Shown piece by piece: positions 1-63,895 of a stretch of DNA of 64,000 bases (the first letter of the stretch is position 1; every line of letters begins with the position of its first letter). The stretch is from Cordylochernes scorpioides (Eukaryota > Arthropoda > Arachnida > Pseudoscorpiones > Chernetidae): positions 18,185,691 to 18,249,690 of the forward strand of contig CP092874.1 in NCBI GenBank assembly GCA_030710605.1. The letters run 5' to 3'. Below the pieces are notes generated by a model. That model made no database searches. It saw nothing but the letters and a program-made list of their open reading frames with translations, and had not been told where the DNA came from. A program made the position numbers and the translations under genes.

Positions 1-705
1 GTTTCATTAATTCTACTGCGGCTACTCAACGAGTTTCATAAATCTACTGAGGCTACTCCACCAAGTATCACCAAATCTACTCCGGCTACTCCACGAAGTT
101 TCATCAAATCTACTGCGGCTACCTCACGAAATTTCATCAATACCTCTGTAGCTACTCAACAAGTTTCATCAATCTCCCGAGGCTACTCCACGTAGTGTCA
201 TCAAATCTACTGCGGCTACTACACGAAGTTTCACCAATCTACTGCGGCTACTCCAACAAGTTACATCAAATCTATTGCGGCTACTCAGCGAGTTTAGTCA
301 AACTACTCAGGCTACTCCACGAAGTGTCATCAAATCTATTGCGGCTACTCCACGAAGTTTCGTTAAATCTCCTGCGGCTACTCTACGAAGTATCAACAAT
401 TCTACTGCGGTTATTCCACGAAGTTTCATCAATTCTACTACGGCTACTCAACGAGTTCATCAAACTACTAAGGCTACTCCACGAAGTGTCATCAATTCTA
501 CTGCGGCTACTCTACGAAGTATCAACAATTCTACTGCGGCTACTCCACGAAGTTTCTTCAATACTACTGCGGCTACTCTACGAAGTGTCAACAATTCTAC
601 TGCGGCTACTCCACGAAGTATCAAAAATTATACTGCGGCTACTCAATGAGTTTAATCAAACTACTGAGGCTACTCCACGAAGTGTCATCAAATCTACTGA
701 GGCTA
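1..705. repeat. 33-bp minisatellite, runs off left edge
   Basis: About 20 tandem units of roughly 33 bp, each with a TCTACTGCGGCTACTCCACG-like core followed by AAGTTTCATCAA. In one frame a unit would encode an 11-residue STAATPRSFIK-like repeat. Units ending CAACGAG rather than CCACGAAG are one base shorter, so the frame breaks repeatedly and stops occur (for example at 39-41). I therefore read it as a non-coding or decayed array. A frame with the tail KSTEAKVDEVAGVTHLKTKI ends at 752, so a relic of a repetitive protein cannot be excluded. Confidence 0.85.
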
Positions 706-7335: not shown

Positions 7336-7744
7336 AACCATTATTTTATATTATTCAATGCAACCATTGAAATTAAAAACACTGACTAGCTAATGGATTC
7401 AAAATATGATTGCCAGAATAATACCATGTAATATAAGAGAACCAATCAATGCATTTCATTTTTCAAATTAAATTTTATTTTTCCCCCCCGCGTGCACCAT
7501 TCGTTTTATGAGAACTCAACACGTCACTTTTTTTTCTTCCTTTATCCTAATATTTTAATTCATAGATGTGGTAGTGTGACCAGGTTGAGAATACAGATAT
7601 TTTCAAAACATCGAATTACTCTACCATTTTATAAATTTGAAAAAAAAAAACAAAACAACATCGATATTTTATAAACGATTATATATAGGTTTTTAAATTC
7701 AAATTAAAAATTTTTAAATTTCAAATTGAAGTTTATCAATGCAA

Positions 7745-8275
7745 TATTGAATATCTCTATATCTATATAAAAATGAATGTTTGTATGTTTGTCTGTCTGT
7801 ATGTCCGGTATACAAATTCGCAATAGTTCACTAATTCAAACCAAAATTTTCATACATAGGTAAAAAAATACGGGGAAGACGATAGGCTATTTTAAAAAAT
7901 ATATATAAATCAATTATTAAAACTATATATATTTTAGTCAAAAAATGTGATGACGATATTGCTGTATCATGTTTGATTATCAGATACAAAATTATATCAG
8001 GAAAAATTCCAAAAAGCAGAGACCACGGGTGAAGCCAGTTCATTTTTAGTATGCAGGAACAAAATTCTAACAGAAAAACATTCATTCGAGCAGAAGACAC
8101 AAAGCCAGATCATCTCTTTATAAAAATATCGCTTCTCAGACACAAAGTTTGAAGCGAGACGTTTCACAAGAATGACATCCACGGCGCCAATTTATAATTG
8201 TAACGAATAGTATTTGAATAAAAGCATTTAATCGGGTAAAATCCGGGCGTTGCCCGGGTCATTCGGCTAGTATTG
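7745..8275 (-). mobile_element. CCCGGGCAACGCCCGG-headed repeat, copy 1
   Basis: On the minus strand it starts ACTAGCCGAATGACCCGGGC and ends in a run containing ACAGACAGACAAACATACAA followed by TATATAGA. This layout, a GC-rich head and an ACAGACAG/TA microsatellite tail, is shared with 8690-9378 and with the 37407-41375 chain. The 60-90 codon ORFs here lie in different frames and I do not regard them as genes. Confidence 0.6.
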
Positions 8276-9416: not shown

Positions 9417-9487
9417 TGCATCGGCCGGGAATCGAACCCGGGCCGCCCGCGTGGCAGGCGAGCATTCTACCACTGAACCACCGATGG
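9417..9487 (-). tRNA. tRNA-Gly(GCC): tRNA-Gly (anticodon GCC)
   Basis: The minus strand reads a near-canonical 71-nt glycine tRNA: D-arm with box A TGGTTCAGTGG, anticodon loop CTGCCAC (anticodon at 9453-9455), and T-arm with box B GGTTCGATTCC. The acceptor stem pairs at six of seven positions. The first pair is C-C because position 1 is C instead of the usual G. Discriminator is A. A T-run follows within a few bases on the minus strand, suitable as a Pol III terminator. It is unspliced with no encoded CCA. The first-pair mismatch means it could be a recent pseudogene or SINE head, but the internal promoter is intact. Confidence 0.85.
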
Positions 9488-40583: not shown

Positions 40584-41375
40584 ACTAGCGGATGTACCCG
40601 GCTTCGCCCGTGTTTTACCCGAGTAAAGGTTTGTCTAACGAATCTCTCGATAAAGTGAACATTTTTTCCCGGTCCCTTGAAAAATACTCGATAAGTTGAA
40701 TAAAATCAATATTAATCGGTACCCGAGTAAAGGTCTGTCTAACGAACATTTGTTAAAACAATTCTCTATAAACTTATAAAAAGAAATAGATATATTTTGA
40801 TATTTTAAACTGATAAAGTGATCATTTTTCCCGGTCCCTGTGTGCCGTGTCATTCTGAATTTTGTCTTTCCTAATTTTCTACATTACAAAATCATCGTTT
40901 TATCTAGTGAACATTTTTTCCCCGGTCCCTTGAAAAATACTCGATAAGGTTGAATAAATTCATGGTCGTTTATGGAAGATGGACGAAGTTCCCGGAGGTC
41001 ATCTTGGGCAAGCTCCCGCGAGGCTTTTTTTCTTGTCTACTTGGCACAGCTGTGTCACCAACTCTGCCCTGATTGGTCGGTGGGTACTTGGACTGTCGGC
41101 CGGCGGCCGGACGGATCCATTCTCTCACGGGGTGGGGCAGACCTAAGCCTATCTCCGTCGCAAGGTGGCGCTGCTTGCGAGTTAAAGCTACAAATCTGCA
41201 AATAACTCTAAGGATATTAAAGATATTCAAGAAATTATTTTTCGTAAACCTTTCCGGGGATACACCTAATAATATCCCAAAATTTCACGGCGATTGGATG
41301 TATGGTTTTTGAATCCATAGAGGACAAACATATACACACACACACACAGACATTCATTTATATATATATATATAG
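40584..41375 (+). mobile_element. CGGATGTACCCGGC-headed repeat, copy 3 with GC-rich insert
   Basis: Head at 40584, tail CACAGACATTCATTTATATA. Contains an internal duplication of ACCCGAGTAAAGGT (40615, 40722) and, at about 40965-41190, a GC-rich segment with GGCCGGCGGCCGGACGG and GCAAGGTGGCGCTGCTTGCG that is absent from copies 1 and 2 and is probably another inserted element. Confidence 0.7.
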
Positions 41376-41540
41376 ATGGAAAATTTGCCGGGAGGAAATT
41401 AATCCATGGAAGCAATGGTCGCCTCTCCCGTCAAAATTAACGTCAGAATCTGACGCCATCTATTGACCGTCGCCGCAACTAGCGGCATCGGGTCGGTGAC
41501 AAAGCCACAACACCAACTTTGGCAAACTGATAAGCGTCCA

Positions 41541-41584
41541 CCTAGAGACCATGGTTTCGGGCTAATGGCCCTCGTCAGTCTAGG
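41541..41584 (-). ncRNA. Hammerhead ribozyme, type I (left arm)
   Basis: Mirror of the plus-strand copy at 41799-41842. On the minus strand helix I CCTAGA/TCTAGG (41579-41584 with 41541-41546), core CTGACGA (41572-41578), helix II GGGC/GCCC with loop CATTA (41559-41571), GAA (41556-41558), helix III ACC/GGT (41548-41555), cleavage-site C complement at 41547. Confidence 0.88.
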
Positions 41585-41798
41585 GCGGACTTTATTCCAT
41601 GAGATCCACACGGGATCTAATGGAATCCTCACAATCTACCAAAGGGGTGTTTTGCTGGCAATGTGGCTGGGCCAAATCTATTGGCAAAACATAGATGGAA
41701 AATTTGCCGGGAGGAAATTAATCCATGGAAGCAATGCCCTTTGGTAGATTGTGAGGATTCCATTAGATCCCGTGTGGATCTCATGGAATAAAGTCCGC

Positions 41799-41842
41799 CC
41801 TAGACTGACGAGGGCCATTAGCCCGAAACCATGGTCTCTAGG
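41799..41842 (+). ncRNA. Hammerhead ribozyme, type I (right arm)
   Basis: All conserved parts are present. Helix I CCTAGA (41799-41804) pairs with TCTAGG (41837-41842). Core CTGACGA is 41805-41811. Helix II GGGC (41812-41815) pairs with GCCC (41821-41824) around loop CATTA. GAA is 41825-41827. Helix III is ACC (41828-41830) with GGT (41833-41835) around AT, including the required A15.1-U16.1 and C15.2-G16.2 pairs. Cleavage is predicted after C at 41836. The very short helix III, palindromic as ACCATGGT, matches minimal type I hammerheads known from Penelope-like elements and animal retrozymes, which cleave best as dimers or in tandem. Confidence 0.9.
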
Positions 41843-42000
41843 TGGACGCTTATCAGTTTGCCAAAGTTGGTGTTGCGGCTTTGTCACCGACCCGATGCCG
41901 CTAGTTGCGGCGACGGTCAATAGATGGCGTCAGATTCTGACGTTAATTTTGACGGGAGAGGCGACCATTGCTTCCATATATATATATATATATAGATGAG

Positions 42001-42245
42001 CCGACGGTGGCGCTCGTGTTGTGGAAATGTGAACTAAATTTGGCTTTGTGTTATTTTGTCATATTTAACATAAATTAGAGTTTGGGGTCAGGTAAATATT
42101 TTTTAAAATTTATTATATTATCACAAAAAATAATAATAATAATAAAATAACACACAAGTATACCACTTTAAATGGTAGGTGACAATTATTAAACCAATTT
42201 TAGTTCCCACTTCCGCCACTCGAGCGCCACCGTCGAGCTGACATT
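42001..42245. mobile_element. TIR element with GACGGTGGCGCTCG ends
   Basis: TGAGCCGACGGTGGCGCTCG on the left faces CGAGCGCCACCGTCGAGCTG on the right, with further pairing of GGAAATGTGAACT against AGTTCCCACTTCC. The inner part is AT-rich with an AAT repeat. Abuts the family B foldback. Confidence 0.7.
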
Positions 42246-42413
42246 TCGTCCATAAAGCTCGCGGGTTGAATGAATTGGTTCCAATATGTTTTTTTTATTG
42301 TTGTTGTTATTTAATAATTAGAGTGTCACAACAGTATATATCTATAAGTCCTAAGAATGACACAGGGATAATTCCTAAGAAACAGACCAAGAATCTTGTT
42401 CCTGTACCAAGAC

Positions 42414-42452
42414 TATATACCATGGTTTCAGGCTATGGCATTCATCAGTATA
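42414..42452 (-). ncRNA. Hammerhead ribozyme, weak helix II
   Basis: On the minus strand: helix I TATA pairs with TATA, core CTGATGA (42442-42448), helix II ATGC/GCCT around CATA with one mismatch, GAA (42427-42429), helix III ACC/GGT around AT (42419-42426), cleavage-site A (complement of 42418). All core nucleotides are consensus; A is permitted at position 17. Confidence 0.7.
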
Positions 42453-42535
42453 CTTCACCAGCTTAAAACATCTTTTTGGTAAATTCTACCGATGTCATAA
42501 CTCCCATTACAGGATGTTATAGAATTGTAGCCATG

Positions 42536-42574
42536 TGTACTGATGAGGGACATAGCCAGAAACCATGGTATACA
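42536..42574 (+). ncRNA. Hammerhead ribozyme, helix II damaged
   Basis: TGTA (42536-42539) pairs with TACA (42571-42574). Core CTGATGA 42540-42546, GAA 42559-42561, ACC/GGT 42562-42569 and A at 42570 are intact. The helix II segment GGGACATAGCCA keeps only about two pairs and ends in A rather than C next to GAA, so activity is probably low. Confidence 0.55.
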
Positions 42575-43204
42575 GGTTGTTGGCTTTTGTCTGAATTTGT
42601 CAATACTGGTGTTGTGGCTCTGATTCCTTATCAACATTAGTAAAGTTCTTTCACTGGGATTACACTACATGTTCTACTGTACGGCAATGGAAGAAGAGAA
42701 AGAGAAATTATTCGTCAAGAGATCGGCTATAATAGCAATTCGCCTTATGTTTTAATGGCAAAAGTCGTAAAATCCAGACCCTTTGCATTCGCTTTTTAAA
42801 AATACTGGAAATCAGCTCAATCAAAATATTTAGCACAGACTCGATAATTGGTCGAGGTCAATACCCAATATTTGTATATAACTATGATGCTAATCTGTTA
42901 TTTATTTATTTTGTCCTACCGGGAGAATCCTGTATGGCACGTGTGCCCAATAAAGGCTATTGTTGTATTTCACTGGGATTATAAACATATTTTAAAGGGA
43001 GAGGTGCCTCTTTAGATACATGAATACCATCCTCCCGTAACTTTATGTTGTGATATATCTCCACATAGTTTCACCTTAAAACACATATAGGTAAAAACCA
43101 AGGTAACACCCTCGATTCCCGACAGTCATGAACCGGGATTGTATCCCGCGTTAACATTTTGTTTAATATGTGAATAACTCACATTCATTGTTGTCTTCTT
43201 CTTT

Positions 43205-44299: not shown

Positions 44300-44356
44300 T
44301 AGGCATATAGCCTTATTCTGAGAGTTTTTTTTAAGTCTATTTTTTATTTAATAAAA

Positions 44357-44516
44357 GGGGAGAGCGCGTACGCAGTCCCCACTACCAAAAATTACGCGCC
44401 CCAGCTATCCCAGTTTGGGAAAGTGGCCAGGGTCAACCCAACCGCAGTGCAATGGCTGGGCCTCTCCTGGGGGCACGGGTTTGATGAGCCCCGTGACACC
44501 GACGCCAGGTAAGTAT
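44357..44516 (-). ncRNA. U1: U1 snRNA-like gene, variant stem-loop I
   Basis: Minus strand starts ATACTTACCTGGCGT, the U1 5' end that pairs with 5' splice sites. Stem-loop II keeps GCCATTGCAC then TGCGGTTGGG (loop ATTGCAC, the U1A contact). Stem-loop III has TTTCCCAAACTGGGA. The Sm site is GTAATTTTTGG at the expected place. The 3' stem-loop is GGGGACTGCGTACGCGCTCTCCCC, written here as GGGGACTGCG then TACG then CGCTCTCCCC. Length 160 nt is close to the usual 164. Stem-loop I is CACGGG/CCCGTG around GCTCATCAAA, unlike the normal GATCANGAAG loop bound by U1-70K. No PSE was recognised upstream. It may be a U1 variant or a pseudogene. Confidence 0.85.
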
Positions 44517-46490: not shown

Positions 46491-46544
46491 TGGTGTGAAG
46501 AGAAAAACGACTGCATAGATATTAGAATAGATGGATAACGGCGA

Positions 46545-46606
46545 CGATCAATAGATGGCGTCAGTTTTTGACGTTTATTTTGACGGGAGAAGCGCCCTAC
46601 GCTTCT
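46545..46606 (+). mobile_element. Family B terminus fragment
   Basis: GGCGACGATCAATAGATGGC then GTCAGTTTTTGACG and ATTTTGACGGGAGAAGCG match the right end of the 41.9 kb foldback (CGGTCAATAGATGGCGTCAG, TTTTGACGGGAGAGGCG). Hammerhead part absent. Confidence 0.7.
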
Positions 46607-48955: not shown

Positions 48956-49271
48956 TGAGACGTTACAGAAACAATTTTCAATTGTACATAAATTCCTTTA
49001 AAATGTTACTTTAATTTTTCATATGTTTATTTTCAATTTCTTTTTCTCATTCATCAAAAGTCAATGATGTACATACTAAATTAGTAAAAACTCAATAAAA
49101 ACGATATGTAAAAATATACATAAAACAAATGGCTTGTAAAAGAAAGCAGCAATAAATGAGTTTAGGCAAAATGTCTATTTCATTAACAAACATTTCACTT
49201 TTAAAATAATAAACTTTAAAAATAAAGTTTTACTAAACTAAAATTAGCGTTTTAAAAATAAAAACGTGGCA
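48956..49271 (+). repeat. 5' LTR of Ty3/gypsy element
   Basis: 316 bp, starts TGAGACGTTACAG and ends AAAACGTGGCA. It is AT-rich with several AATAAA-type hexamers. Read base by base it matches 52959-53274. Confidence 0.95.
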
Positions 49272-49273
49272 TT

Positions 49274-49290
49274 TGGCGCAGTCGACAGGA
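49274..49290 (+). promoter_or_regulatory. Primer binding site
   Basis: TGGCGCAGTCGACAGGA follows the 5' LTR by two bases. The TGGCGCAGTCG start matches the site used by 17.6/297-type gypsy elements, which prime with tRNA-Ser; that assignment is inference. Confidence 0.7.
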
Positions 49291-49302
49291 TACGGAAAGA
49301 AA

Positions 49303-52300
49303 ATGGCGGAAAATCCAAACAACCGGTTGCAAAAATTCAACGGCTCAAAGTCGGCAATTAGGCCTGAGTCATGGATCAAATTATATGATTTTGAAAATAA
49401 TTCTTTAAAAGAAGATGAAAAAATCAAAAATCTTATGTACTACTTGACAGATTCAGCACTTGAATGGTATGCAGACGAGATTATTTCAAATCCTGCAATA
49501 AAAAGATGGGAAGTTGTAAAGGAAAAGTTGATTCAAAGATTTGGTTCATACAACGCAAATCCAATTGTCTCAGCATCACATCGAAGATTAAAACGAGAAG
49601 AATCAATAGAAAATTATTTTCAAGATAAAATTCGCCTGTTAAATCAAACCCATCTAACGAAGGAGGAAAAAATTCATTTATTAACAGACGGACTTCCAAA
49701 TGATTGGAAAGATTTAATTGTGGCTGCACAGCCAACTGACGCCACAAAATGGTTTCATATCGCAGCTTCAATTGAACAAAATAGGGCTTCAATTCAGTTT
49801 AAGCCTAAAAACAAAATACATCTCGCGACAAAAAATAATGATAATAGAAAAAATGTTTGCCCATTCTGGTGTCCAATATGTTCGAAAAAGGGAATAAAAA
49901 TTAAACATTGGGTCACAGATTGTGAGGATTATGATCCTAATTATAAAAAGGATAGGCCTAATCAAAACACTTCAGTGAAACAAGTATGCGAAGCCCCGGA
50001 ATTGTTGAATGTAAGTACTTTGACAAATACCCATACACAAGGAGCTTTCAAGCTTATCAACATAAGTGTTGAAGTAAATGGAATTCCTGCGCAAGCATTT
50101 GTGGATACTGGAGCAACAGTATCAATAATCAATTGGCGATTGTTCAAGCGAACCCGTCTTCAACTTCAACCAAATTCAGACATTCACATCAGCCAAGCGG
50201 ATGGTGTTACCAGGACATGTGGAAGCCTTCAGACCAAGGTAAGAATAGATAAACTAATTAAACCTGTAACTCTCCATGTAATGAAGAACTTTAAATATCC
50301 ACTCTTGATCGGATTAGATGTTGCATCTCTTTTTAATCTTTTAATAGATGTCAAAGACAAAACAATTTACACCAAATTTGATGGATTACAAAATCCAATT
50401 CTTGTAAATCATCTAGAAGAGATAAGAGAACATGAATTAAAAAAATTACTTGAACACAATAGGAATGTATTTTGTCAGCATGCCATTGATTTGGGAAAAG
50501 TAGCTATACAACATAAGATCATCACGAAAAGTGAACAACCAATTTCTCTTAGACCCTATCGTCGTCCTCTAAAAGAGTATGAAGAGATAGCTGAACAAGT
50601 TAAAGAACTTCTCGAACACAAGTTAATAAGAATTTCAGATTCTCCTTGGGCATTTCCTGTTGTTATGGTTCCCAAGAAGGATGGAAATAAAAGGATGTGC
50701 ATTGATTACAGACGTCTTAATGAGATCACACTAGATGACAGGCAACCCCTACCTCACATACAGGACATGTTTGATCGATTGCATGGATCCAGATTCTTCT
50801 CTACCCTTGATGTTGCATGGGGTTATTGGCAGATCGAAATGGACCCGCAATCTATTCAAAAAACTGCATTCGTCACAAACGATGGTCATTATGAGTTTTT
50901 AGTGATGCCCTTTGGTTTAAAAAATGCTGCTTCAACGTTTCAAAGGATAATCCAACATATTCTAGGTGAATTATTATGGAAAGGAACTTGCTCTTTCCAA
51001 GATGACATATTGGTGTACACGAAAACATGGCAAGAGCACATAGAGCTTCTTAGTAAAGTTTTTGACAAATTAAGACAGTACAACATGAAATTAAAATTGT
51101 CGAAATGTATTTTTGGAAGAACTGAAGTAAAATACCTCGGACATATCATCAGTCACAATCAATTAAAACCTGATCCAGGAAAAGTAAAATCTATTCAAGA
51201 CTTTCCAAGACCTGATACTGTAAAGAAAGTTCGTCAGTTCATGGGATTGGCAAATTATTACAGAAAATTTGTGAAGGACTTTTCTAAAATTTCATTCCCC
51301 TTGGTTCGACTCACTCGGAAGAATCAGCCCTTCTTCTGGAATGAGGAAGTAGAGGAGTCATTCGCTAAACTTAAAATGGCACTATCTACAAAACCTGTCC
51401 TTGCTATTTACAACCCGGACTACCCCTCTAAAGTTTATACAGATGCCTCCAAATATGGAATTGGAGCAATCCTAACACAAATTGGTCCAGACAATGAGGA
51501 ACATGTAATTGCTTATTACTCCAAAACACTGCAACCACACCAAGAGAATTATTCTGCTTATGAGATGGAATGCCTAGCCGTAATACAAGCAACTGATCAC
51601 TTTCATGTGTACATAGAAAACCAACCATTTGAAATCATCACTGATCATGCGGCGCTCCAATGGCTTTTCACCATGAAGAAACCGAAACCTAAGTATTTTA
51701 GATGGATTCTTAGTTTATCCTCGAAATCATGTAACATCGTTCATCGTTCTGGAAAGCAACAAACTCATGTTGACGCCTTATCAAGACTCCCAGTTGTTAA
51801 CATTGCAACTCAAGAACTTCAAGAACACCAACAAAATTCAGATTTGAGTTTCTTGAAAAATTCCCACACTCACGACGGTGTGGTAATGATCAAACAAAAA
51901 GGAGTTTTTAAAGCAGTTGTCCCAAACTCGCTTACCAAAAAAATATTGGAAGAATATCACGATTCATTGAGTCACCCATCAATAACCAAAACATGCAAAC
52001 TTATAACTCAATGTTATTGGTGGAAAGGAATAACAACTGATATCAAGAATTATGTTCGATCTTGTAAATCTTGTCAACTAGTGAAGGTCAGACATGAACC
52101 AACTTTAGGAGAAATGATCACTCCAACGTCAAATATCCAACCATTACAAATGATCGGTTGTGACACTATTGTACTGGGAACAGCAGCAGCTAACACAAAG
52201 CATAAATTCATTCAAGTTTTTGTTGATCACGCAACTCGTTATCTATGGGCATATCCCACAATAACAAACACTGCTCAAGCTGTCACTCAATGTCTTGATA

Positions 52301-52938
52301 AGATATTCAAATCTGTTAATTCGATCAATACTATCTTAACAGATAATGGCAAAAATTTTATATCAAAAGAGTTCAACAAATTTCTTTCTTTACAAGGAAT
52401 TAAACACACATATACTTCGCCTTATCATCCTCAGTGCAATGGCATTTGTGAGAAATTGAATGATACGATAATGACAAAACTGAGAATAGCTGTTCTGGAG
52501 AAACCTAGATGTAAATGGAGCTCATTGTTACCGCAAGTTGTCAAAAATTATAATTCCACACCACATGACGTGACTGGTTTTTCACCGCTTTTCTTAATGT
52601 ATGGAATCGGTAATGTACCCGAATTTGCCGACCAAACTCCAATTACAATTGAAGAAGCCAGGAAGAAAGCTAGCCTGCGGACAGAACAAATTAGAAGTAA
52701 GTGGAAGATTAAACACGATAGCCATCACCCCAAGTATGTCTATAAAGAAGGAGACTTAGTCATAAGAAAAATTGCCTTCAACGACCCTCGTCTCATCAAG
52801 ACATCACCAAAATATGAAGGACCATTTGTCATTCAAAAAAAGGTATCTGATGTAACCTACGATATCTCTCTGAAAGACCAAAAGCAAGCAAGACGCGTTC
52901 ACATATCTCAACTTCGACCATTTATTACCCGAGAATAA
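49303..52938 (+). CDS. Gag-Pol polyprotein, Ty3/gypsy
   Basis: 1211 residues in one frame with no stop between gag and pol. I start at ATG 49303, since upstream codons lie in the primer binding site. Order: gag-like region 1-180; variant zinc knuckle C190-x2-C193-x8-H202-x4-C207 (the usual spacing is x4 before H); protease DTGA 268-271; reverse transcriptase with FQDD at 565-568 (F in place of the usual Y); RNase H with YTDAS near 714; integrase H886, H891, C921, C924 and the catalytic triad D954, D1014, E1050 (DD35E); a GPF-type C-terminal module (SPKYEGPFVI). It copies RNA to cDNA and inserts it in the genome. Every catalytic motif is intact, so the element may be active. Confidence 0.96.
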   Translation: MAENPNNRLQKFNGSKSAIRPESWIKLYDFENNSLKEDEKIKNLMYYLTDSALEWYADEIISNPAIKRWEVVKEKLIQRFGSYNANPIVSASHRRLKREESIENYFQDKIRLLNQTHLTKEEKIHLLTDGLPNDWKDLIVAAQPTDATKWFHIAASIEQNRASIQFKPKNKIHLATKNNDNRKNVCPFWCPICSKKGIKIKHWVTDCEDYDPNYKKDRPNQNTSVKQVCEAPELLNVSTLTNTHTQGAFKLINISVEVNGIPAQAFVDTGATVSIINWRLFKRTRLQLQPNSDIHISQADGVTRTCGSLQTKVRIDKLIKPVTLHVMKNFKYPLLIGLDVASLFNLLIDVKDKTIYTKFDGLQNPILVNHLEEIREHELKKLLEHNRNVFCQHAIDLGKVAIQHKIITKSEQPISLRPYRRPLKEYEEIAEQVKELLEHKLIRISDSPWAFPVVMVPKKDGNKRMCIDYRRLNEITLDDRQPLPHIQDMFDRLHGSRFFSTLDVAWGYWQIEMDPQSIQKTAFVTNDGHYEFLVMPFGLKNAASTFQRIIQHILGELLWKGTCSFQDDILVYTKTWQEHIELLSKVFDKLRQYNMKLKLSKCIFGRTEVKYLGHIISHNQLKPDPGKVKSIQDFPRPDTVKKVRQFMGLANYYRKFVKDFSKISFPLVRLTRKNQPFFWNEEVEESFAKLKMALSTKPVLAIYNPDYPSKVYTDASKYGIGAILTQIGPDNEEHVIAYYSKTLQPHQENYSAYEMECLAVIQATDHFHVYIENQPFEIITDHAALQWLFTMKKPKPKYFRWILSLSSKSCNIVHRSGKQQTHVDALSRLPVVNIATQELQEHQQNSDLSFLKNSHTHDGVVMIKQKGVFKAVVPNSLTKKILEEYHDSLSHPSITKTCKLITQCYWWKGITTDIKNYVRSCKSCQLVKVRHEPTLGEMITPTSNIQPLQMIGCDTIVLGTAAANTKHKFIQVFVDHATRYLWAYPTITNTAQAVTQCLDKIFKSVNSINTILTDNGKNFISKEFNKFLSLQGIKHTYTSPYHPQCNGICEKLNDTIMTKLRIAVLEKPRCKWSSLLPQVVKNYNSTPHDVTGFSPLFLMYGIGNVPEFADQTPITIEEARKKASLRTEQIRSKWKIKHDSHHPKYVYKEGDLVIRKIAFNDPRLIKTSPKYEGPFVIQKKVSDVTYDISLKDQKQARRVHISQLRPFITRE

Positions 52939-55413: not shown

Positions 55414-55606
55414 TTATGAAAAAAGGGGCATCTCCTTATCGTACAACTGAAAGTTGCTGATGGCTTGCGCCATCTATCGGAATAAATATCAACTATTCTC
55501 GTTGATTTTTAATTATTCCAGAATTGGCCAAATACCCATTCTTGATAGATGGCGCAAGCCATCAGTAACTTTCAGTTGCACGATAAGGAGATGCCTTTTT
55601 TCATAA
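55414..55606. mobile_element. TIR element with GGCATCTCCTTATCGT ends
   Basis: Arms run TTATGAAAAAAGG, GGCATCTCCTTATCG, CTGAAAGTTGCTGATGGC, TTGCGCCATCTATC on the left and mirror this on the right (GATAGATGGCGCAAGCC through CATAATTAT), about 80 bp each. The centre has AATTGGCCAAATACCCATTC, related to 63700-63860. Confidence 0.85.
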
Positions 55607-55684
55607 TTATGCACCTTATCCCAGTACAATATTACATTTGTACTATTTTTTCACAAATAGTGATATATTAACCGCTCTTGATTT

Positions 55685-57052: not shown

Positions 57053-58168
57053 TTAGAAAAACCGAGTTAGAATCATAGTGTAGGTATAGGCACAACCAGC
57101 AATGGTGAAGAAAGTCATAATATTTATATAGACAAAATGGCCTGCCTTGAAGGAATACCCGGGATTGGAGCCAAACAGACAGTAGAGCTTCAGTCGTAGA
57201 TCCACAGATAGAGAATTCCCAAGTTGTTCAATCAGCAGGAATGGAAACTGACAGGATTCATATTCATGCATCGTTCCGAAAGTGCACATCATTACCGAAA
57301 GCAAAACATTCAATATGATCATAAAACAGAAATCAAGAAAACGTATTTCATACAATTCTTTATCTCTCAAAACATAATGGATATAATACAACAAGATATT
57401 AAAGATACTTCCAAGATAGATTAAGATAGGAAAAGCATAAACATCATTAATTTTATCAGCTAATTTCATAATTTCAAAATGTTCATCCGTTATATTTTCA
57501 ATTAGACGATTAGGTGCTGTTGTTTTCGAGTTAAGACATCGAGTATTAAGCTTACGAAATCCCAAAGTGGTATGCATAGCTAAATAAGAAAACTGTATAA
57601 TAATACAAGCATACATGTAGGTAGTTAAATGATAGGTAATCTTACCAAAAATTTGATGATAGCGTCCGTTCATTGTGGTATACAAATTATAAATATCCAA
57701 ACAAATGGAAACAGTCATAGAAGAGATAATTAAAAGAAGAAAGAATTGGAATATATAATGTTGATACCTTTTTTTAGGTGGTTTTACCACGTGCACAATG
57801 GTGAAGACGATTTCGAAGATCCGTCGAGCATAGAAGAGAAGGATTCCATTCATGACAATATGGCAGACAGCGAAGAGCACGACGTAGATGACGCGATGTA
57901 GATCATGTCCACGGTAGATGAGAAATATGGTAGCCTTGACAATATTGGCAACCAGTAGCTGCACCCAGAATCTTATCTTGTAGAAGAGAGAAGGCTCGCT
58001 GAGTGGGATGTTTCCTGAAAGATAGAAGATGACTCGTAAGTACCAGGGATAGAAGATGTAGACATCTTCAATGGTAGAGCATCGTCTACTCGTGCGCTCC
58101 TCAACTGCAGCCTCTTCCATGTAGATTCTCCCAGCTTCTGCCATTTGATGTGTATTATTCATCTGCAC
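57053..58168 (-). CDS. Gustatory-receptor-like seven-transmembrane protein
   Basis: A single 371-codon exon. About seven hydrophobic helices can be placed near residues 66-85, 91-113, 138-160, 178-200, 243-265, 276-298 and 345-369, with a long hydrophilic N-terminus (1-60) rich in E and R. The last helix ends AYTYTMILTRFF; the TY....L..F pattern in helix 7 is the signature of arthropod gustatory receptors, ligand-gated channels with inverted topology relative to GPCRs and an intracellular N-terminus. Length fits the family (350-450). The R at 369 stands where insects usually have Q. No frame break is seen. Spider and tick genomes carry many such genes, which fits but does not prove a chelicerate source. 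The ligand is unknown. Confidence 0.82.
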   Translation of the reverse strand: MQMNNTHQMAEAGRIYMEEAAVEERTSRRCSTIEDVYIFYPWYLRVIFYLSGNIPLSEPSLFYKIRFWVQLLVANIVKATIFLIYRGHDLHRVIYVVLFAVCHIVMNGILLFYARRIFEIVFTIVHVVKPPKKRYQHYIFQFFLLLIISSMTVSICLDIYNLYTTMNGRYHQIFGKITYHLTTYMYACIIIQFSYLAMHTTLGFRKLNTRCLNSKTTAPNRLIENITDEHFEIMKLADKINDVYAFPILIYLGSIFNILLYYIHYVLRDKELYEIRFLDFCFMIILNVLLSVMMCTFGTMHEYESCQFPFLLIEQLGNSLSVDLRLKLYCLFGSNPGYSFKAGHFVYINIMTFFTIAGCAYTYTMILTRFF

Positions 58169-58394
58169 ATTACGTTGAGAGGTGTTGTTAATGTTTTACA
58201 TGCTCATTAGTATAATTCCACTTCCAGCGCTATGTAATTAACCCATTGACAGCCTTCATTTTAACCTGACATTATGTAGATAAGTGCTTTGAACTATTAA
58301 TATATATTTATTAAATTTAAAAGAGGAATAGAACCTTGTCTTTTATCAATTCAATCTATTAATAAAGAAGAAAATGTTTGTTTTTTTTTTCTCG

Positions 58395-59970: not shown

Positions 59971-60115
59971 TGTCTTTTTATTATCTAAAGATTAATAGAG
60001 TGTAAGTTTGTTATTTTTTATTGGTAAAAAAAATTACTTACCTTGAATGTTTCTGGTAACAAAGGGACACTGTAATTATACCATAACTTGGATATATATC
60101 TATAAAAATATAGGT

Positions 60116-60390
60116 CACCTCTCCCGTCAAAATAGACACGAAAATTAAACGCCATCTATTGACCGGTACCGCAAACTAACGGATTCAGGTCGGTGACAAA
60201 GTCACAATACTAACTTTGGCAAACTGAGAAGCGTCCAGCTGGAGACTATGGTTTCGGGATAATGGCCCTCATCAGTCTAGGGCGAGGTGTAGTAGCTATG
60301 TCATCGACCCGAGTCCGCTAATTTGCGGAGACAGTGAATAGGCGGCCCTTAGTTTTGGCGTTTATTTTTTACGGGAGAGGTGGCCTTTAT
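60116..60390. mobile_element. Family B TIR element, single copy with hammerhead
   Basis: Inverted ends CACCTCTCCCGTCAAAATAG and TTTTTTACGGGAGAGGTGG. Inside them AACGCCATCTATTGACC and GTCGGTGACAAAGTC on the left mirror GTGAATAGGCGG and GTCATCGACCCGAG on the right. About 85-bp imperfect TIRs flank a centre of about 90 bp that contains the ribozyme. Confidence 0.85.
60239..60282 (-). ncRNA. Hammerhead ribozyme, type I (family B)
   Basis: Minus strand: core CTGATGA (60269-60275), helix II GGGC/TCCC around CATTA (60256-60268, three of four pairs), GAA (60253-60255), helix III AC/GT with loop CATA (60245-60252), cleavage-site C (complement of 60244). Helix I CCTAGA against TCCAGC pairs at four of six positions. 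All core nucleotides are consensus. Confidence 0.72.
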
Positions 60391-63300
60391 GTTTTATTTT
60401 ATTATGAAGAAAATAAAGTCTCCAGAGCTAAGTTTCTTGTTCAAATTTTATTCTCTAGCTTTCGGACCTGTCAGTCCTTCCACAGTAAAAAATCAATATT
60501 CCCCCCCCCCCAGCAAATTGCGTATTGAAGTAGTAGAGAAACATAAAATAAAGAAAACAAACAGACTTTATTTCATCTTTTGTTTCCATTAACACACTCC
60601 ACTTAAAACACACTCAAGTGACATTAGATAAATACAAAAAAAATAATGAAATAAAATATTTGGTTAATTAATCTTTGGACTTGAAAATTATGTATAACAT
60701 ACCCGAAATAAATAAATAAATTTATATGATTTATAAGTGTAAAATAAATATATACACTTTAATAAAATAAATACAATGAAATACTTGACAAATTTTCTTC
60801 TGTTACATAGTGCCGACTAGTCATATTCTTTACGTTAAAAAATCAAAATTTCAATTAAATAATAATTAACTAAAAATGATAGGGCAAATAAACACTCAAT
60901 TGTATTATGTAATATTATATATTTTTTAGAAAGCACACAAAAATTACCATTATATTCAAAGTTTTTTTTTTTAAATATATAATATGGCGTTAGAATTATA
61001 ATAATTTATATGAATTAGGACAATGAAGGTTTAAAACCAACGTTAAATGGTTTATAAAATATAATTACATCATATGAAAAAGAAAATTAACTCTTTGGTT
61101 TATCTCATTAATAGAATTGAATGGCAAAAAATTCAATTGAGAGATATTTTATTCCTCAATCTTGTTTTTGATTAAAAAAAACGTAATACAAAACTATAAC
61201 AGTTTTTATACTAAAATTATATATAGTAGTTAAACATGAATAACATTTTAATTAGCAAAAATTAAACAACAATAATAAATTATAATAATAAAAAAAAACA
61301 TACAGTTTATATTTCAGTTAATGTTTTTAAAAATAGATTTAGAGTACAATATTATACAATAACTCATTTTAACGTAAATAATAATTTTAAAATAATATAA
61401 TTTAAAAACCATACGTTTGACAAAATGAACACTTTAATCGTAAATTTACTATAAATATAATAAATTAACGGAAAAATAAGAAAATAATAATAATAAAACA
61501 TATTTATATATAAAATGAGGTGCAGACGATAAAATCGGCGGTCAAATATTGATCGACCAATAGCATCAGGCCATATTTCCCGCCAAAATAGTATGAAAAA
61601 TGAATCCTAGCACGTTACGAGATAGTATATCACATTTTGACAGTGTGGCGAAATATAATTTACAACATATTTATTTAACTCATAGAACAAACATACCGTG
61701 AAATTTAAAAATATAATAAATACATATCGTATGGTAATTATAAACAAAATTAGATGTCTCCTAAACTTAAAAATTATATAGAAAAAACAAAACGATAATC
61801 AAAATAATGGATATATATAAAATTAGAAAAGAGAAAAACAAATTATAAATAAAGTCATATATATATATATTACGTATATTTAGCATTTTTTTCCACATAT
61901 AATAATTATCTTTTTAAAACTTAAATACAATTTCTTATAAGGGGCAAACAAAAAAAATATATAGCAGCAGATTATAGCACGTTTTATATTAGCGCCCTTA
62001 AAAAAACGCTCTAACTAAAATAAATTAATATTACAGCAACTAAACATATAATTATATATTTTAATAAACTTCAAGCTCATAAAACGGATCAAATATATAT
62101 ATACACACATTATTTAAACTTTGTAAATAGCTTTAAGAATATATAAGAGAGAACAGAAAACATCAAAGATAAATACATACATATATATAATATATAGATA
62201 TATATATATGGAGTAATATTAGAATATATATAGCATAAAGTATATATAACAATATATATATAAACATATTTATAATTTTCAATGAAGAAATTGATATATA
62301 TATATTTTTTGAAAGAGTTTTATATGATAAATACGCATCCATAAACAGATTATATATATGTAACAGACATTTTAAAAGGATAATATGGAAATACACCAAG
62401 AAAACACGCTTGAGGTGACATATATATATATATATTTGGATAAACATGGAAGCAATTTTTTCATATATATAATCCACATAGGTTACATTCACAATGAGTA
62501 TATATATAAGGGGTATACATATATATTTATTTAAGAACAATTATATATATATTTTTTAAAGCGCCTGTTAATCTTTATTTTTTGATTATCATTAAATGTG
62601 TTAAAATGTGATTGTAATTTTTCAAAGTAAGGCTTTTTTTATTCTTTGTATTTTGTTACTAAGATCTTTTTTTATACACCACAATACATGCAGGAATATA
62701 TTTAAGTGTCTTCAGAACTAGTTTATTCTCTATTTTTTAGTGTAATATGCATTTGTGTTTATTAAATTTGCATACGGTATTTTACTTGCTTAGGTGCTTG
62801 GTTAAAATTTAATGTTTATAAGTAAACTATATTTTTAGGTAACCCTGGAAAAAAATCACTGATACTAAAAATTCATTGATTTTTAAAAATAATATTTAAT
62901 TTTTTAATGCGTTTATTAAATTAAGATTGAATATAATTTTTATAATTACGTCATACAATAATTTTTTAAAATTAAATAAAGGTGACAAATAAAGTTGGGC
63001 AAATAAATAAATAAATAAAAATGTAATATTTACATACAAATACGTATGTAGATAATATTGATAGAAATATGGAGCGGGGATTATTCAAAGAAATATGAAA
63101 TTTACGTGAGCAAAAATTTTTGTTTCTATTTTTTTTTTCCATTTAATTTTTACTTTAGAATTTCACCATAAAAATCAAATACCGCAATAGATTCTATAAT
63201 ATCGTATTCTATACCCCTAAAATACCAAATTTTGTTCGCGCCTTTTTTTTTTAAGCGCAGAAGATTAAAAAAAAAAAAAAAAACTAAAGAGAATACTTCT

Positions 63301-63594: not shown

Positions 63595-63895
63595 AAGGCA
63601 TCTCCTGACCACAAGCACATGTGCTTTTTAGATGGCAGAGCGCCATCTAGTCGAGCAAAAATAAACTAAACGCTTATTTAGATTGCTCCGTGATATTTGG
63701 CCAACCCAAATTCTTGATAAATCAAGAAAAGCCATCCACGAACGTGTTTCGCGCTGTTGGCGCTCGTCAGCGTGGAGTAAGCTGTAACCACCGCGACCAA
63801 AAAGATTTTTGGTCCCAGAGGCTTCTTGAGAAATCAAGAAATGGGTATTTAAGGCCAAATTTGCGTAAAGACGCTTATTAAAATATTGTATATAG
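63595..63895. mobile_element. GGCATCTCC-type element with hammerhead
   Basis: Begins AGGCATCTCCTGACCACAAG and GAGCGCCATCTAGTCGAGC, comparable to the ends of 55414-55606. The interior has TTGGCCAACCCAAATTCTTG and, inverted, CAAGAAATGGGTATTTAAGG CC. The right end is not clearly delimited near the window edge. It carries the ribozyme at 63735-63776. Confidence 0.65.
63735..63776 (-). ncRNA. Hammerhead ribozyme, type I, U at cleavage site
   Basis: Minus strand: helix I TCCACG (63771-63776) pairs perfectly with CGTGGA (63735-63740). Core CTGACGA is 63764-63770, helix II GCGC/GCGC around CAACA is 63751-63763, GAA is 63748-63750, and helix III AC/GT around AC is 63742-63747. The residue at position 17 is U (complement of 63741), allowed but usually slower than C. 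Every core residue is consensus. Confidence 0.85.

Follow-up and report, generated by a model that had tools for sequence, protein, structure and literature searches.

Head-to-head hammerhead motifs in Cordylochernes scorpioides: a likely two-sided insertion of a non-autonomous Penelope-like retroelement

The foldback element and its surroundings

The window analysed here, the whole stretch of 64,000 nucleotides from Cordylochernes scorpioides (contig CP092874.1), contains a foldback element at 41372-41977 (Table 1). Its inverted arms, 41406-41646 and 41737-41977, are 241 nt long each, are separated by a 90-nt spacer and differ by one mismatch in the alignment (the repeat finder printed 100%). 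The near-perfect foldback that an earlier note on this DNA had placed at 41407-41976 is thus present. The element is also asymmetric, which that note had overlooked: the left arm reaches 34 nt further outward and runs on beyond one full 319-nt unit. It consists of unit 1-319 at 41690-41372, then unit 274-319 at 41736-41691, so that the same 46 nt stand at both of its extremities (direct repeat 41372-41417 / 41691-41736). Its outer end, at unit 319, is what we call the long ("distal", tail-bearing) end. The last 1-2 nt of the right arm are ambiguous with the flank.

The element is bordered by a target-site duplication, the left copy of which (CATTTATATATATATATATAGAT) differs from the right one at 1 position in 23. 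The limit of the left copy is ambiguous, the sequence being a simple repeat and the element's own end reading ATAGATGG; the length of the duplication at this locus is not fixed because the duplication is a TA repeat.

The 319-nt unit is non-coding and has a GC content of 49.5%. A search of 41372-41977 for open reading frames (ORF) gave no frame of at least 120 aa and no ORF with RT plus GIY-YIG domains, so that the element can be, at most, a non-autonomous derivative of a Penelope-like retroelement (PLE). The characteristics of retrozymes are found here, namely a non-coding unit of 150-450 bp with a type I hammerhead, a GC content below 50% and direct tandem repetition (tandem units occur at several loci). 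Those of PLE are also found at the 41372 locus: head-to-head pLTR-like arms, a tail on one end and an AT-rich target duplication. The tail is 34 nt long at this locus and in family A, to which the unit belongs, and about 49 nt long in family B2 (query 246 vs 295), beyond the published range of 30-40 nt.

The window houses other copies. A head-to-head pair of family C (42412-42576) adjoins the foldback. In the insertion at 46530, the right arm spans unit 216-282 with the short end, and the left arm is reduced to about 7 nt of the long end, as judged by eye. The insertion at 55416 has its short end on the left and its long end on the right, and the arms of the 60104-60394 insertion are truncated independently, at unit 104 and unit 177.

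Table 1. Features of the foldback locus and of related copies in the window
Feature	Position	Strand	Remarks
Target-site duplication, left copy	41355..41377	.	(TA)nAGAT
Left arm	41372..41736	-	365 nt = 1.14 x 319-nt unit
Minimal type I hammerhead	41541..41584	-	C17 at 41547; predicted cut 41547/41546
Right arm	41737..41977	+	unit 45-285; outer end = short ("proximal") end
Minimal type I hammerhead	41799..41842	+	C17 at 41836; predicted cut 41836/41837
Target-site duplication, right copy	41975..41997	.	(TA)nAGAT
Family C hammerhead (older related family)	42412..42454	-	left member of second head-to-head pair
Family C hammerhead	42534..42576	+	right member; helix II base mismatched
Family A insertion without hammerhead	46530..46606	.	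14-bp duplication TAGATATTAGAATA
Family B2 head-to-head insertion	55416..55656	.	12-bp duplication AAATAGTGATAT
Older family A head-to-head insertion	60104..60394	.	outer ends unreadable
Family A hammerhead in 60104-60394 insertion	60238-60281	-	model R1
Family B1 hammerhead	63735..63776	-	descriptor (63770 -), model R1

Elsewhere in the window, there is a U1 snRNA match (44355-44516, minus strand, 130.6 bits), a tRNA match (9417-9487, minus strand, 59.5 bits), a 1233-aa open frame with protease, RT, RNase H and integrase domains, which is that of an LTR-type retroelement (49237-52938, plus strand), and a 380-aa frame that matches 7tm_7 chemosensory receptors (57053-58195, minus strand), a match that speaks for a host among the arthropods or other invertebrates.

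The hammerhead motifs

A type I hammerhead is defined by conserved core residues and three helices, and is open at helix I. Each arm of the foldback contains CTGACGA, helix II GGGC/GCCC (4 bp), GAA, ACC(AT)GGT, C17 and helix I CCTAGA/TCTAGG (6 bp), so the core residues and the three paired helices that the earlier note had read in both arms are all there. A descriptor of the motif matches three times in the real window (41541-41584 on the minus strand, 41799-41842 on the plus strand, and 63770 on the minus strand), and never in 60 dinucleotide shuffles of the window.

Rfam returned no hammerhead at the gathering threshold in the whole window, nor at E<=10 in 41300-42800, and RF00008 had no match across the whole genome; the control genomes likewise gave none, so that this last search is uninformative. 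The earlier note had named the absence of a hammerhead model match above threshold as grounds for refutation and, as far as Rfam is concerned, such a match is absent. In our judgement the miss can be discounted, because helix III is tiny (its 8 nt make 3 bp with a loop of 2 nt, and family B has 6 nt) and 18 copies covary. Matches to miRNA models near the foldback are far under the gathering scores, and we took them to reflect the inverted repeats.

The covariation was examined by aligning 18 copies from the genome, 16 of them distinct, which belong to families A, B and C and were chosen by motif. The number of cells changed on both sides is 33, compared to 11.8 in shuffles (0/500 as high) and 1-8 in slid structures. 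The number of pairs changed on both sides gives weak support (8 vs 5.9, 27/500 as high) and that of further pair types gives none (18 vs 17.1, 213/500 as high); in all, three of the five measures beat the shuffles with 0/500 as high, the fourth being the weak one and the fifth the one without support. The core residues, the shuffles and the covariation therefore support the assignment of these sequences as putative hammerheads.

The covariance model built from the 18-copy alignment (model R1) gives 71.9 bits to 41541-41584, which is among its own sources. It has 29 matches at E<1e-4 in 364 kb, 22 of which are within 28 readable 10-kb stretches outside the window and its flanks. This is about one per 13 kb, or, by extrapolation, about 200,000 hammerheads in 2.62 Gb, a rough number considering that there are 28 stretches, that the matches are clustered and that part of R1 was made from them.

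As for folding, the self-complementary ACCAUGGU might pair across two RNA molecules to build helix III (predicted duplex energy -11.2 kcal/mol). The tiny helix III is shared with the minimal PLE hammerheads that cleave as dimers, to which ours are likened by description (Lunse et al. 2017; Cervera and de la Pena 2014). The 623-nt plus-strand transcript is predicted to fold into a long hairpin (-543.9 kcal/mol); it is from this predicted energy that the competition between arm pairing and ribozyme folding, anticipated in the earlier note, draws its support. That note was right to describe a young foldback with minimal type I hammerheads, and to relate it to PLE and animal retrozymes.

Arrangement of the family in the genome

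The genome was searched with the single unit, and the best 40 of 751 candidates were scored (141 rows, 39 loci). These loci were not chosen for inversion; the query favors loci with a full-length unit, so that long arms are over-represented. Among them, 32 of 39, with the window locus among them, are head-to-head (31 by script, plus C18:10285875) and only one arm is seen in the other seven, two of which are clipped, apparently by a 50-bp search margin; one of these two, C2:36624808, is a full foldback in the foldback query described below. No tail-to-tail pair occurs in these 39 loci except for a tail piece outside C18:10285924. This piece (G000:C18:10285875-10285917) is an isolated 43-nt fragment (unit 243-285, plus strand, 88%) which faces the head-to-head insertion tail to tail. 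In the same 39 loci, the arms range from 44 nt to about 1.87 kb and reach about six tandem units in some cases. The earlier note had presented the arrangement as an unfamiliar one; it is real, but it is implied by the published anatomy of PLE and is the commonest form of the family in the loci examined.

The outer ends could be typed at 27 of these loci (26 by script, C18 by eye). In 26, one end is long and the other is short, with a difference of about 34 nt; in the remaining one, both are long. The excess of long and short combinations has p ~2e-7 if the ends are assumed to be independent and equally likely. In the 26 loci, the shorter arm carries the long end in 14 cases, 11 of which show a difference above 30 nt, and the short end in the other 12, again with 11 above 30 nt. 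The query with the foldback (best 40 of 1249 candidates) is biased toward the foldback form and its loci overlap those of the single-unit query; among the matches listed (239 rows, in part), 28 of the 31 typed loci are long and short, and three are long and long. The exception C24:22245063 is common to both queries, and the long and long reading of C3:43077644 is uncertain, its right side being clipped in the single-unit query. The ends of C5:52258595 almost coincide with those of C5:52706439, so the two may go back to a single insertion that was duplicated, and this may also be so for C1:155250790 and C1:155427228 in the foldback query; all were kept.

We also examined a sample consisting of 10-kb stretches and the window, using Blast with the unit and two family B references, followed by reading of the sequences. 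All 13 insertions with both ends readable are long and short: six of family A (window 41372, window 46530, L004, L014, L018 and L024) and seven of family B2 (window 55416, L015, L020, L021, L022, L027 and L030). Some of these ends were judged by eye, L014 is the window's neighbor and not a random stretch, and window 46530 and L020 are counted with one arm of only about 7-12 nt. The rows left out were those with unreadable ends, running off the stretch, with one arm seen, or odd: 42412-42576, 60104-60394 and 63735 in the window; L001 (several); L004 1416 and 8930; L005 6139, 8687 and 9872; L007 (three); L009; L011; L014 9967; L015 5333 and 6098; L016; L017 344-720 and 788-1190; L019 4528; L024 2774-3221; L025 9837 and 2201-2430; L027 1646 and 2740; L028 6630 and 7742-8058. 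In L017:344-720, a family A copy, an inverted piece of unit 14-45 replaces the expected left outer end.

A target duplication with a score of at least 10 borders 10 of the 13 insertions, compared to 17 of 2000 swapped-flank controls; the score is below 10 for L015, L020 and L027. Three of the ten duplications (window 41372, L018 and L030) lie in AT-rich simple sequence, and duplications in non-simple sequence measure about 11-14 bp. The two arms of L018 diverge unequally from the unit, the left one by 6-11 changes per piece and the right one by 0-2; this difference is suggestive, though not conclusive, of two different template RNAs.

The centers of the arms were read from 58 inner ends, in 29 of the 32 head-to-head loci from the best 40 of 751 candidates (three were omitted for clipping or odd ends). 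Fourteen of the 58 fall at unit 221-246, where 4.7 would be expected in a uniform 26-nt bin, and a near-palindrome, CGTCAGATTCTGACG, lies around this position. The inner junction of the window locus (unit 274/45) is away from it. A cut linear monomer was considered as the visible template and discarded: one of the 58 inner ends is within 3 nt of the hammerhead cut at unit 145, which is about the chance level (1.3 by proportion). Sixteen inner ends are reported at unit 1, which may mark the 5' end of the template or only the limit of the search; the search lists no piece below about 26-29 nt, and the true ends could thus fall at any position of unit 294-1. At the 29 centers, the matched pieces overlap in nine cases, abut in three and leave a gap in 17; the abutting pieces share 8 nt (CCATCTAT) in one case and none in two, including the window locus. 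Considering this mixture, joining by microhomology is a possibility. In the 26 long and short loci, 34 of the 52 arms exceed 325 nt, an excess which is helped by the selection for full length; that arms are longer than one unit implies that the template was circular or multimeric.

A candidate for the enzyme is encoded at L002:7516-10000, where RT (RVT_1) and GIY-YIG frames occur in copies that are head-to-head over 727 bp at 99.3% identity. The domain pair assigns this element, which extends beyond the fetched stretch, to the PLE. The minus frame starts within the RT. Since the RT/GIY-YIG copies are head-to-head, the coding PLE has, at one locus, the same form as the 319-nt element; no sequence link was seen between the L002 PLE and the 319-nt unit.

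Origin of the head-to-head arms

We consider it likely that the foldback results from one two-sided, target-primed insertion of a non-autonomous Penelope-like retroelement, whose unit is the 319-nt hammerhead sequence, the reverse transcription being probably performed by the PLE machinery. A PLE protein would nick the two strands of an AT-rich target at positions about 12 bp from each other, giving two 3' ends, each of which would prime the reverse transcription of a hammerhead RNA. Synthesis would begin at unit 319, the distal site, on one strand and at unit 285, the proximal one, on the other; polymerization would proceed toward the 5' end of the RNA, at times through more than one unit, and the two cDNAs, of the same polarity, would be joined centrally. 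Filling in would leave the RNA 3' ends outward and the 5' ends inward, with a target duplication. It is because the RNA 3' ends are outward in both arms that the two hammerheads would face away from each other.

The DNA displays the anatomy of the foldback, the long and short rule in the typed loci, the duplications at 10 of 13 insertions, the multi-unit arms and the head-to-head PLE coding DNA. From these we infer that both strands are primed in C. scorpioides, and that the enzyme is a PLE; a circular rather than multimeric template, the mode of central joining and the activity of the ribozymes are likewise presumptive. The long and short ends resemble the two RT start sites of the PLE studied by Frangieh 2024 (PMC11167929). 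In the account given there, both target strands are cut and then extended by the purified PLE in vitro, with a preference for AT-rich sites, RT starts at two adjacent internal sites which bound a "tail", and hammerhead mutants are still inserted. It may be, from the latter result, that the ribozyme is dispensable.

The most serious alternative to two-sided priming is that a single cDNA folds at a palindrome, primes itself and copies back the second arm; self-priming, on an antisense template, has been proposed for the head-to-head repeats of Penelope (Arkhipova 2013, PMC3846280). The near identity of the arms at the window locus and the clustering of 14 of 58 inner ends (best 40 of 751 candidates) around the near-palindrome are in its favor, although this clustering could serve two-sided priming as well as self-priming, and many junctions, including that of the window, are away from the palindrome. 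An arm made by copying should stop at the point where its template arm starts, whereas the outer ends are about 34 nt apart in 26 of 27 typed loci. Moreover, the longer end is on the shorter arm in 14 of these 26 (by more than 30 nt in 11), which is impossible for a copy. We therefore regard self-priming as unlikely. It is less plausible still that the pair of ribozymes has been selected as a device, for example a ribozyme and an antisense copy that regulate each other in transcripts from either strand. Both hammerheads are intact at 41372-41977 and the whole transcript is predicted as a single hairpin, as such a device would have it, but the arm lengths vary widely among the loci from the best 40 candidates, and only one hammerhead is left in L004 and L024, and none in window 46530, L022 and L030. 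The best reading is that the ribozyme pair is the product of an insertion.

The two remaining explanations are, in our opinion, very unlikely as well. Long inverted arms and target duplications are what one would see if a transposase moved a fold-back or MITE-type DNA transposon with terminal inverted repeats, in which the hammerheads would be incidental; such a transposon does not account for the unequal outer ends, the independent truncation of the arms at the center, the arms of up to about six tandem units (best 40 of 751) or a coding PLE of the same form. Tandem arrays do recombine, fold-back artefacts of long reads exist, and the family is abundant, so that a secondary inversion, a recombination of neighboring copies or an assembly artefact could be invoked with equally slight probability. 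On the contrary, all 32 inverted loci (best 40 of 751) are head-to-head, and these processes would yield neither the long and short ends nor the duplications seen at 10 of 13 sampled insertions.

Two-sided priming can be taken one step further, at the price of a more tentative proposal, which we think has rather less than an even chance of holding. In this bidirectional rolling-circle target-primed reverse transcription (TPRT), a dimeric PLE would use a small circular hammerhead RNA and, at the same time, both 3' ends of a staggered cut, with a different start site for each, and each enzyme would run one to several times round the circle, giving a head-to-head double array of a non-coding RNA.

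Place among known elements and significance

The literature already describes PLE with head-to-head arms, with a tail that may be present on one arm, and with hammerheads. The inverted pLTR is part of the typical Penelope structure and head-to-head is described as the most frequent arrangement (Arkhipova 2013, PMC3846280); hammerheads in pLTRs are reported as well (PMC7761336). As described in the former paper, canonical Penelope shares with the 319-nt element the head-to-head arms and partial tandems, target duplications (8-10 bp in some cases, absent in others) and an optional 31-bp tail on one inverted pLTR. Unlike it, the 319-nt element has no RT/endonuclease ORF, its unit joins end to start directly, its arms reach about six units, and the long and short ends have been counted across loci (best 40 of 751). 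Poseidon/PAc of Anolis, according to the account in PMC11167929, has in common with our element a hammerhead that precedes the region where RT starts, the existence of two such start sites, the AT-rich targets and the cutting and extension of both strands; it differs in being an autonomous coding element studied in vitro, and the main text and legends of that paper do not describe joined head-to-head products.

The metazoan non-LTR retrozymes (Cervera and de la Pena 2020, PMC7229834) are similar in that their units, which measure about 150-450 bp, are described as non-coding and directly repeated, with type I hammerheads, a GC content below 50% and duplications of more than 4 bp. The words "inverted", "opposite" and "head-to-head" are absent from the main text of that paper, in which circular RNA is demonstrated, whereas a circular RNA of the 319-nt unit is putative. 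The helix III of our unit looks like the minimal PLE type, unlike that of the metazoan retrozymes presented there. The 319-nt element thus lies between retrozymes (size, tandems, absence of coding capacity) and PLE (ends, arms, duplication). Our searches of the open-licence PMC literature turned up neither head-to-head arms made of several non-coding hammerhead units of retrozyme size nor a count showing one start site per end.

In the text of PMC7229834, PLE are named only as a strong candidate for moving animal retrozymes. That retrozyme-like units have the ends, arms and duplications of PLE supports this mobilization anatomically and, if it is true, bidirectional rolling-circle TPRT would be the missing mobilization step of animal retrozymes. 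The pattern of one long and one short end also turns the two RT start sites observed in vitro into a prediction, that of one site per target strand. Both the mobilization of retrozymes by PLE and this prediction can be tested in any genome that bears PLE.
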